A DNA stretch of 64,000 bases, from NCBI GenBank assembly GCA_016788065.1, contig JAEUTI010000077.1:1-64000 (forward strand). The letters are read 5' to 3'. Every line of letters starts with the position of its first letter. Within the stretch, counting starts at the first letter, position 1. Made by a program: the position numbers and the translations under genes. The DNA is from Bacteroidia bacterium (GTDB taxonomy: Bacteria; Bacteroidota; Bacteroidia; AKYH767-A; OLB10). This document shows positions 9,973 through 12,658 of this stretch, one piece after another. A model generated the notes under the pieces. It searched no databases. It had not been told where the DNA came from and worked only from the letters and a program-made list of their open reading frames with translations.

Positions 9973-10752
9973 TTAATAACTCTTGAGTGTAATCCCTCCA
10001 AAAATGGCATTTCCGCGTAGTATTAAAACCTTATCGGGATCACCTGAACCCATCTGCAACACGCGATTATCTTCAACACCACCCAGTATAGCTACCAACT
10101 CAGCCGATTGAACAGTCCAGTTGGCTGGGATGATAAGTTTGGCACCACCAAAAACTGCATTTACTTCCAAAACTGCGCGTCCTTTAATGTCGGCCTGACT
10201 GAAATTTATTTCCGCACCACCGAACACACATGATACTTCGCCGCCTTTAAAATTTTTGGTGATGATGTTTTTTTTTACCCCACCAAAAACACTGGAAGTT
10301 TCGAGGAAATCTTCGGAATCACTTTCAGCTGCATTAATACTGTTGAATTTTTTTCGTGCACGGTCCGAAATCCTGCGTGCCGACCCAGGTGTGAGCACAA
10401 TAGCCATCCCGACAAGGATCAGGGCAACAGGCCAGAAGTATGGTTTCAGATTAAAATCGGGAATCCAGTCATCCAGCAAAAAGAAAGCACCAATAAGGAT
10501 AGGTACAATCCAGCCACCGGGATGGAAGTTATGTTTGGCGCCCACAAAAACACCAATAGCAATAAGCAGCATCTGCCAGCTAAAAAACCAATCCGGGAAA
10601 TAAATTCCCATGGTTCTGGCCAGCAATAATCCACCAACCAGCATAATTATTATTCCTGCTAAAACCCTACCCATTGGGTTAGGTGGTACCACCTCGCGTT
10701 GTTGGTACTTTTGTTCAAATTCCTGTTTTTGTTTCGGATCGATGATTTCCAT
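9973..10752 (-). CDS. LiaF-like membrane protein with repeated VFGG C-terminal domain
   Basis: Membrane protein of 259 residues. Four hydrophobic segments (about 28-130, e.g. VLAGIIIMLVGGLLLA and WPVALILVGMAIVLTP) match the LiaI/LiaF transmembrane region. The soluble C-terminus is a beta repeat in which one phrase recurs: SSVFGGVKK, SCVFGGAEI, NAVFGGAKL, VAILGGVED and NAIFGGITL. This is the signature of the LiaF C-terminal (cell-wall-active antibiotic response) domain. It lies immediately upstream of a LytS/LytTR pair on the same strand, so it probably modulates that kinase in response to envelope stress; that role is inferred from Firmicutes LiaFSR. A -7 box (TACATTTG) is at 10776-10769. Confidence 0.85.
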   Translation of the reverse strand: MEIIDPKQKQEFEQKYQQREVVPPNPMGRVLAGIIIMLVGGLLLARTMGIYFPDWFFSWQMLLIAIGVFVGAKHNFHPGGWIVPILIGAFFLLDDWIPDFNLKPYFWPVALILVGMAIVLTPGSARRISDRARKKFNSINAAESDSEDFLETSSVFGGVKKNIITKNFKGGEVSCVFGGAEINFSQADIKGRAVLEVNAVFGGAKLIIPANWTVQSAELVAILGGVEDNRVLQMGSGDPDKVLILRGNAIFGGITLKSY

Positions 10753-10776: not shown

Positions 10777-10859
10777 TACCACCAGCCCAAAGCAGGAAAG
10801 TGCAAATAGGCAGCCTCAGGAGGAAAGTCGGTGAATGCCGGGAATTAGTCGGTGAAGTT

Positions 10860-11060
10860 AGCAGCTAAAGCTGCTGTCATTCGCGGCAGAGCCGCGTCAT
10901 TAGCAGCAAAGCTGCTGTCATTGGGTCATTGGCGGCAAAGCCGCAGTCATTAGGTCATTAATGGTCATTGAAGAAATTCTCTGCTGAGCAGAAACAAAAA
11001 AAAGCTTAATCATTAATCCTTAATTCTTAATCCTTCAAGGGTCATTGGCGGCAAAGCCGC
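10860..11060. repeat. Array of five short triloop hairpins separated by GTCATT units
   Basis: Five perfect hairpins: AGCAGC-TAAA-GCTGCT (10860-10875), CGCGGC-AGA-GCCGCG (10882-10896), AGCAGC-AAA-GCTGCT (10902-10916), GCGGC-AAA-GCCGC (10932-10944) and the same again at 11048-11060. Each is next to one or more copies of GTCATT; about ten GTCAT(T) words occur from 10876 to 11095. Stems differ in sequence but stay paired. The block lies between divergent genes and contains no open frame. It resembles bacterial REP-type elements in general form; I do not recognise the family. Confidence 0.75.
11008..11035. repeat. Heptamer repeat tract (AATYCTT), first copy
   Basis: AATCATT followed by AATCCTT, AATTCTT and AATCCTT in tandem. 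The last 21 bases are identical to both halves of the tract at 13212-13253. A degenerate remnant (CCTTAATTCTT) recurs at 11120-11130, just before the next gene. Confidence 0.75.
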
Positions 11061-11146
11061 GTAAATTGGTCATAGGTCATTTGTCATAGGGGAATTTATC
11101 GGTTGAAAAAATCAATCATCCTTAATTCTTTTCGTATTTTAGCCTC

Positions 11147-12658
11147 ATGAAGTTATTCCGGATCAGCTTTTTAATCATTGTTTTCATCTTTATAGCTTTG
11201 GGTGTAAAGGCTCAATTTAAAAACAATGTTTGGTGTTTTGGTGATAGTGCAGGTGTGAAATTTGATCAGGGAGCAACTCCATTATTTAATTCATCCACAG
11301 TTACCCGCGGTGGAAGCTGCACCATTTCCGATTCGGTTGGTAACTTGCTTTTTTATACTAATACAGATTATTACTTTTTATGGAACCAAGGTTTTGTTTC
11401 CTTAGGTGTTGTATGGGATCGTAACCATAATTTGATGCAAAACGGTGACACGTTAATTGGTTCTCTATTGTTTCAGGAACAGGTTATCGTCCCATGGCCA
11501 GATTCGTCCCATCTTTTTTACATATTTACACCTAGTGTATTGTTTTTTTACGGGTTTTGGTATTCAGTAGTCGATTTGAATCAAAATGGAGGATTAGGGG
11601 CTGTGGTTCAAAAAAATGTGCAGATGACCAATTACCAGGCATCAGATTGTGTAACAGCCGTAAAGCATGGCAATGGCAGAGACTGGTGGGTGTTTTTTAA
11701 AAGGTTTGATGTAGTAAATGATTCTATGTATAGATATTTAGTTACTCCATCAGGAATTGAAGGACCCTTCGTTCAAAATGTAGGCACTCCAACTGATAAT
11801 GGATTCATGCATACCACATTTTCTAAAGATGGATCTAAATATTTGGTGGTTAATTACCGAGGCTTAATTGAAGTTTATGATTTTGATAGGTGCACGGGAC
11901 TTTTTAATAATGTAATCAATATTGAAAATGAAAGAATGCCTTCAATGGTCCCAAAATATACAGGCAACGCTTTTTCAGCTTCTGGCCGTTACATTTATGT
12001 AAGTACAACAGATAATCCTGATACTTACCTGTATCAGTTTGATTTATTAGCTCCTAATATATCAGCGTCCAAAACACTCATATATTCTGTGCAAACTCCT
12101 TCATATTTTGGATATATGCGATTAGCTCCTGACAATAAAATTTATTGCTCCTTAAATTATTATGATGGAATTAACACATATCCTTATTCCGATAGTTTAA
12201 ATAATAATTTCAATCAAAACATGAGCGTCATAAATTATCCGGATAGCGCTGGAACTGCTTGCGATTTTTCTCCATTTAGTTTTTACCTGGGAGGAAACGA
12301 AACGTATTGGGGCATGCCCAATAATCCAGAGTATGAATTGGGAGCCCTTACAGGCAGTCCGTGTGATACGTTGGTATCGCAAAATGAGTTGGCAGGGGCA
12401 GCGGCAGTAGGCAGTCTTCATGTTTACTACCACCCGGCATGGGAGAAAGCATTCATTAACGCCTCTAACTTAAAAGGCAAAACCGGCAAGTTGTTGGTGT
12501 ATGATATGCTGGGAAAAGTTGTTCATTCGGAACCGCTTAGGATACAGAATGGGTACTATACGAGAGATTTGTCGATGATTGGTTATGCTAAAGGGATGTA
12601 TTTGATTACGATTCAAACAGAAAAAGAACGACTCACCAAGAAGATGATGGTGGAATGA
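11147..12658 (+). CDS. Secreted protein with T9SS type A sorting domain, propeller-like
   Basis: Secreted protein of 503 residues with no recognised catalytic domain. It has a signal peptide (MKLFRISFLIIVFIFIALGVKAQ). The mature start NVWCFGDSAGVKFDQGATP resembles a group of Bacteroidota surface proteins that open with a W-FG--AG-DF phrase. The body is a set of beta-rich repeats suggesting a propeller (e.g. TTFSKDGSKYLVVNY, NAFSASGRYIYVSTT, MRLAPDNKIYCS). The C-terminal 80 residues, with LLVYDMLGKVVHSEPL and GMYLITIQTEKERLTKKMMVE, are a type A sorting domain. The gene is visibly AT-richer than its neighbours and is bracketed by heptamer repeats. A near-match -7 box (TATTTTAG, 11135-11142) ends only five bases before the ATG. 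Confidence 0.85.
   Translation: MKLFRISFLIIVFIFIALGVKAQFKNNVWCFGDSAGVKFDQGATPLFNSSTVTRGGSCTISDSVGNLLFYTNTDYYFLWNQGFVSLGVVWDRNHNLMQNGDTLIGSLLFQEQVIVPWPDSSHLFYIFTPSVLFFYGFWYSVVDLNQNGGLGAVVQKNVQMTNYQASDCVTAVKHGNGRDWWVFFKRFDVVNDSMYRYLVTPSGIEGPFVQNVGTPTDNGFMHTTFSKDGSKYLVVNYRGLIEVYDFDRCTGLFNNVINIENERMPSMVPKYTGNAFSASGRYIYVSTTDNPDTYLYQFDLLAPNISASKTLIYSVQTPSYFGYMRLAPDNKIYCSLNYYDGINTYPYSDSLNNNFNQNMSVINYPDSAGTACDFSPFSFYLGGNETYWGMPNNPEYELGALTGSPCDTLVSQNELAGAAAVGSLHVYYHPAWEKAFINASNLKGKTGKLLVYDMLGKVVHSEPLRIQNGYYTRDLSMIGYAKGMYLITIQTEKERLTKKMMVE

Follow-up and report, generated by a model that had tools for sequence, protein, structure and literature searches.

The block at positions 10860-11060 of the window, the whole 64,000-nt stretch of DNA analysed here, is best explained as an array of a REP-like dispersed repeat, short and non-autonomous, that is confined to one Bacteroidota genus, is non-coding, grows head-to-tail and gains and loses units, a reading to which we assign a probability of about two in three (0.68). 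As an earlier note on the sequence had stated, it lies between divergent units, with the gene of a LiaF-like membrane protein (Pfam LiaF-TM; 9973..10752, minus strand) on the left and that of a T9SS sorting domain protein (11147..12658, plus strand) on the right, both outside the repeat. The five perfect hairpins reported in that note were all recovered, at 10861-10874, 10883-10895, 10903-10915, 10932-10944 and 11048-11060, with 5-bp stems that reach 6 bp in some and with loops of TAAA, AGA, AAA, AAA and AAA in this order. On the plus strand, the main array consists of unit 1 of stem type A (AGCAGC-TAAA-GCTGCT; 10860..10875), a GTCATT tag and unit 2 of stem type G (C-GCGGC-AGA-GCCGC; 10876..10895), a GTCATT tag and unit 3 of type A (A-GCAGC-AAA-GCTGC-T; 10896..10916), two GTCATT tags and unit 4 of type G (G-GCGGC-AAA-GCCGC-A; 10917..10945), and a terminal run of three GTCATT words (10946..10969). 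The layout as a single hairpin array holds for these four clustered hairpins, but the fifth stands about 100 nt away behind a TTAATCCTTAATTCTTAATCC-type repeat: a GTCATT tag and unit 5, of type G, occupy 11041..11060 (plus strand), and the intervening plus-strand segment at 10970..11040 is made of different intergenic repeats (GAAGAAATTCTCT..., TTAATCCTTAATTCTTAATCC) that also occur near other arrays and are partly conserved in the congener. Degenerate GTCATT/GTCATA words follow at 11061..11090 on the plus strand.

The density of tags and hairpins in the block was exceptional within the window. The plus strand of 10850-11100 contained nine GTCATT and two GTCATA words, in agreement with the count of about ten given before, and any other 251-nt stretch, sampled in 25-nt steps, held at most two GTCATT per strand. 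The hairpin core GCNGCNAAGCNGC occurred three times in the window, always in the block, versus 0.07 copies expected from dinucleotide shuffles. An Rfam search at gathering score matched one tRNA in the window and nothing at the block, and a reading as an Rfam RNA was rejected on this ground; intrinsic terminators were likewise rejected, as the stems, inspected by eye, lacked a trailing T run.

The earlier note had named a single occurrence of the block in the genome as a finding that would refute it. This is not the case: 21 multi-unit arrays, the block among them, were found in this 4.26-Mb genome (G000), and the search of the genome and its relatives that the note had proposed showed that GTCATT-hairpin arrays recur in the sole other genome of the genus compared (G011). 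The pattern GTCATT-N-GCNGC-NNN-GC (GTCATTNGCNGCNNNGC) gave 59 matches in G000, 50 in G011 and three on a stray contig of a third record (G024), and its reversed-pattern control gave none. A tighter pattern was found in 2 of 24 genomes of the family; among the 42 genomes of the order, GTCATTNGCNGCNNNGCNGC was found in two, both of this genus. Scanning of the genome_contigs collection returned 16 stretches, 15 of them in MAG KLAP29, which was judged to be the G011 assembly, and one in a Saprospiraceae MAG. The latter contig shares 95.3% identity over 1062 nt with the G011 locus, which assigns it to the same lineage and makes misbinning probable. No match to the repeat was obtained in the viral_contigs, phage and plasmid collections, and a phage or plasmid origin was rejected accordingly. 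As far as the collections searched show, the GTCATT-hairpin family is genus-restricted, and a literature search found no published description of it.

The unit reads GTCATT-N-GCRGC-loop-GCYGC, with the next tag following after 0 or 1 base; its palindrome is GC-rich and 5 bp long, or 6 bp where the flanking bases pair. A relaxed scan yielded 175 candidate units, chance matches included, of which 83 had GCGGC/GCCGC stems, 61 GCAGC/GCTGC, three GCAGC/GCCGC and none GCGGC/GCTGC. The loops of these candidates measured 3 nt in 145, 4 nt in 25, 2 nt in four and 5 nt in one, the commonest being AGA (43) and AAA (42), followed by GGA, TAAA and ATA (12 each). After 15 single-unit clusters were left out (seven of them within called ORFs, with real units present among the rest), 160 units remained in 38 clusters of at least two, and 137 of the 160 were perfect members of the two types. 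The switch between GCAGC/GCTGC and GCGGC/GCCGC stems was thus real in that two types are present, but they differ by one base pair only. Among the pair changes that set the 160 units off from their nearest stem type, 26 were one-sided and one was two-sided, so that the paired-arm covariation reduces to the single base pair separating two unit types; compensation across the stem outside these types is nearly absent. The G011 orthologue of unit 1, with GCAGC-GAA-GCCGC, exemplifies a one-sided change.

Several observations indicated that units are copied. All units of one array share one strand and orientation, and opposite-strand multi-unit arrays were found only at the two sides of one gene (L075, and L092 in G011). 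Arrays at orthologous positions differ in their number of complete units, as in the window array, with five in G000 and three in G011. One G011 array (L179) is a series of ~30-nt copies that are almost identical; in several of them the stem is shortened, a change that was copied together with the remainder of the unit. Loops were identical in 86 of 327 pairs within arrays versus 886 of 6960 pairs between arrays. The differences in unit number, the L179 run and the within-array loop identity together support copying, which accounts better for the paired stems than structural selection does. Of the two options in the earlier proposal of selection on, or copying of, structure, copying therefore stands and selection on the stem is unsupported, and the note's own counter-case, a simple expansion of one unit without paired changes, proved partly true. 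We suggest that the two stem types represent two founder units copied as wholes, in which case both arms would seem to change together. Slippage, or unequal recombination between tags and units, would lengthen and shorten the arrays, which would spread by ectopic recombination or by a putative enzyme acting in trans. A host function of the arrays is not required by the evidence.

The genomic position of the arrays resembled that of known REPs. The three unit scans clustered units differently, into 41, 38 and 38 arrays, and, with mechanical ORF calls, 36 of 38 clusters of at least two units did not overlap a called ORF. Among the 33 clusters with both neighbours, 13 lay between convergent, 14 between codirectional and six between divergent genes, and 15 of 38 started no more than 35 nt from a same-strand stop codon, making it possible, judging from position, that arrays are transcribed as 3' UTRs. 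This distribution agrees with the bias of REPs towards 3' ends and the spaces between codirectional and convergent genes that is described in the part of PMC3733652 drawn on here. The same part of that paper (Di Nocera et al. 2013), which includes Bacteroidetes, treats CGTC-tagged REPs, and these share with the GTCATT units a short palindrome beside an unpaired GTC-containing tag, an intergenic position near gene 3' ends and the lack of a flanking transposase gene. The tag possibly corresponds to the terminal CGTC (variants TGTC and CCTC): behind the stem, from which it is separated by no more than one base, GTC forms CGTC or NGTC, but the word is likewise present in front of every stem and continues into GTCATT. 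In the descriptions available in PMC3733652, moreover, CGTC REPs have stems of 8-9 bp starting with A-T pairs, loops of 4-5 nt and mainly head-to-head dimers with rare clusters, whereas GTCATT units have GC-rich stems of 5-6 bp, loops mostly of 3 nt and head-to-tail clusters. They also have no CCA tail, which CGTC REPs possess.

Strict membership of either the CGTC REPs or the RAYT-associated REPs fails, on grounds of tag, stem, loop or orientation, and the block is REP-like, yet grows as tandem arrays and carries no gene of its own. A genome from another genus of the same family (G013) contains 19 copies of GTCATTGCGAG, which we take to be the start of typical CGTC repeats, within CGTC-REP-like palindromes, and CGTCATTGCGAG...GCAATC is presumably such a typical repeat; GTCATTGCGAG was absent from both G000 and G011. 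A shared origin of the GTCATT start in the G013 repeat and in the units of this genus is possible. Intergenic runs of short words that vary among close relatives are also known as heptamer direct repeats, such as TAACTGA in Beggiatoaceae, Cyanobacteria and Bacteroidetes, but these, in the part of PMC4679880 that describes them, are plain direct repeats, whereas most GTCATT words alternate with hairpins.

Among the competing explanations, the one that survives best, although we regard it as unlikely, is a REP family mobilised by a RAYT, in which a RAYT-like HuH protein would cut single-stranded DNA at GTCATT-tagged hairpins and move units in trans. RAYT-associated REPs and REPINs are likewise lineage-specific, dispersed, intergenic palindromes, and a hairpin beside a conserved short tag at gene 3' ends fits REPs in general. 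Furthermore, G000 possesses a single RAYT-like HuH gene (contig C91, 51172-51624), which scored 59-62 bits against NF047646, below the cut-off of 80 (best score in its own genome, 59.3 bits), and whose product has DHIH, WQ and YIIANP stretches resembling class 2 motifs tabulated in the part of PMC6006769 used here. The protein had no match in a Pfam search, and its gene was missed by the PF01797 search, so that other divergent transposases could be missed too. However, no units were present in the ~6 kb around this gene, whereas RAYT REPs and REPINs have a RAYT gene flanked by the repeat, a GTAG/GGAG-type tetranucleotide foot in place of GTCATT, and a mainly inverted, dimeric arrangement as opposed to direct arrays; the stems here are also only 5-6 bp long. 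The PF01797 search returned two IS200-like Y1_Tnp genes in G000, again with no units in the surrounding 4.5-6.5 kb, which differs from what IS200/IS605 ends or MITEs would present. Their proteins carry YIKNQKKHH and YIRNQERYH, a form that PMC6006769, in the part cited, lists under subclass 1.2 without REPs; the two genes resemble that subclass, which, according to the same part, generally lacks typical terminal hairpins. The REP/IS200 link raised in the earlier note is only partly upheld: the location is REP-like, but no transposase gene found is flanked by units.

A slightly weaker candidate, also doubtful, is that selection maintains the hairpins as functional structures in RNA or DNA, such as mRNA 3'-end stabilisers, protein-binding sites or replication signals. 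The perfect pairing of the 137 array units is consistent with this, as is the position of many arrays immediately behind stop codons, where transcription is probable. An alignment of 28 orthologous units between G000 and G011 also revealed a slowly changing tag, with differences at 5 of 163 positions versus 100 of 1430 in the left flanks, 14 of 88 in the loops and 11 of 28 at the base before the stem. The stems, however, differed at 26 of 280 positions (two scan-misframed units included), no less than the flanks, so the most conserved part of the unit is the GTCATT tag, not the stem. The near absence of compensation beyond the two types also departs from what a functional structured RNA would display.

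The order of stem types offered a further point for functional structures. Abutting units (19-22 nt) were of unlike type in 34 of 42 pairs (18 AG and 16 GA) versus an expected 0.49, pairs with longer spacers (27-36 nt) in 36 of 65, and, once orthologous arrays had been removed, abutting pairs in 21 of 28 (p=0.014 by permutation within arrays). When pairs of units with AAA loops were modelled as RNA, like neighbours cross-paired and unlike neighbours did not, but a model run of four alternating units did cross-pair. For the 23 of 28 non-redundant arrays with mixed types, local pairing in the observed versus the shuffled order was 0.269 versus 0.309 for RNA (p=0.95) and 0.598 versus 0.570 for DNA (p=0.15). 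The stem-type order thus does not favour local hairpins, and the idea that alternation serves independent folding was rejected. Plain copying, the account preferred here, does not predict that abutting units alternate in type; instability of like neighbours and duplication of mixed groups are candidates for the cause. A more elaborate proposal would join these data into an alternating code, with abutting units obligatorily unlike so that neighbouring palindromes neither cross-pair nor recombine, and with arrays acting both as strings of independent hairpins and as preferred junctions that reshuffle genes and intergenic cassettes within the genus; we consider it improbable.

Differences in both arms within similar surroundings were seen in a few orthologous units (window unit 2, L072, L104 and L105), and either unit replacement or template switching could equally have produced them. 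Replication template switching inside hairpins, which would keep the arms matched and convert stem types, and which has been proposed as maintaining RNA hairpins in the part of PMC8794818 cited here, fits paired changes with the same loop in similar context at L072/L097 and L105/L110 and in the closing pair of L104/L109, but it is very improbable as the general explanation, as one-sided changes far outnumber paired ones, most type switches are equally explained by unit replacement, and inverted loops, one possible mark of the process, were found in 2 of 175 units, both TCT and at one orthologous locus.

Comparison with G011 placed the REP-like arrays at some of the sites where gene order differs between the two species, whose aligned flanks are ~92-95% identical. 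Collinearity of the window with G011 contig C3 extended to 11073, the array end; the next gene matched contig C190 from 11129, followed by C303 from 13246, and there was no further contig change within the 19.9 kb of window tested, although G011 is in 350 contigs and the synteny baseline of the window is only about 20 kb. The gene behind the array on C3 is the one that in G000 stands behind the L077 array. In G011, the orthologues of the genes that precede the L077, L076 and L083 arrays have other repeats behind them in place of an array, and contig C88 contains a collinear 15-kb block whose end coincides with the stop codon at which an array starts. Collinearity thus ends at the arrays in the window and at the L077, L076 and L083 loci. 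At least six other arrays (L073, L087, L104, L105, L106 and L107) have collinear flanks, so breaks of synteny at arrays are not general; the orthologue comparison leaves out several arrays, for example L074, L080, L085, L086 and L108. G011 offered no clean empty site: where an array is absent, the whole intergenic stretch differs, and insertion was therefore not seen as an event. From the sequence comparison, arrays can be viewed as junctions or as portions of intergenic DNA that has been exchanged. The T9SS gene family next to them, with 39 matches in G000, among them the window gene (11147-12658), and 31 in G011, may itself drive the exchange.

Further features were observed around the arrays. 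Several genes of the T9SS family adjoin arrays. At three G011 loci without an array (L157, L131 and L188), other repeats such as CCTGAGCGTAGTCGAAGGG and AGACGCATAGCAATGCGTCTCTACA are present instead, and at L084/L098 the two species share, at 96% identity but in different surroundings, a ~159-nt block with one unit. Runs of TTAATTC/TTAATCC and ATCATCT/ATCATTT as well as CTCTGCGTCTCCCTAACTCTGCGTTC stand beside arrays at 10970-11040 of the window and at L072-L112, many of them with an apparent 7-bp periodicity. At L075 (G000 contig C38, 3030-3830) and L092 in G011, a four-helix-bundle gene (23S rRNA IVP, PF05635) is bracketed by two arrays of opposite orientation. Its neighbours are a 382-aa gene, presumably encoding a DinB polymerase, on one side and a DnaE-type polymerase gene on the other. 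The IVP ORF differs between the species at 2 of 366 positions, as against 93.1% identity over the 2.1-kb alignment around it. In the DnaE-type gene, the likely start codon (ATGAC, MTAFSHSNYSLRYGT; L075:3031, minus strand) lies inside a reversed GTCAT tag, so that the array forms the leader of this gene. An association with IVP genes is not claimed, since units were found in the fetched flank at 2 of 8 G000 matches (L114 and L115), one of them on both sides, which is too few; this flank scan leaves out L120, the eighth match, located beside the fourth.

The GTCATT-hairpin repeat provides a two-species case in which a palindromic repeat family can be followed as its units come and go, as it replaces intergenic regions and as it occupies sites of differing gene order, and a canonical-looking repeat of the CGTC type that shares the GTCATT start is present in another genus of the family. 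It is also a warning that the apparent concerted change of both arms of a hairpin can stem from two copied founder units and not from structural selection.
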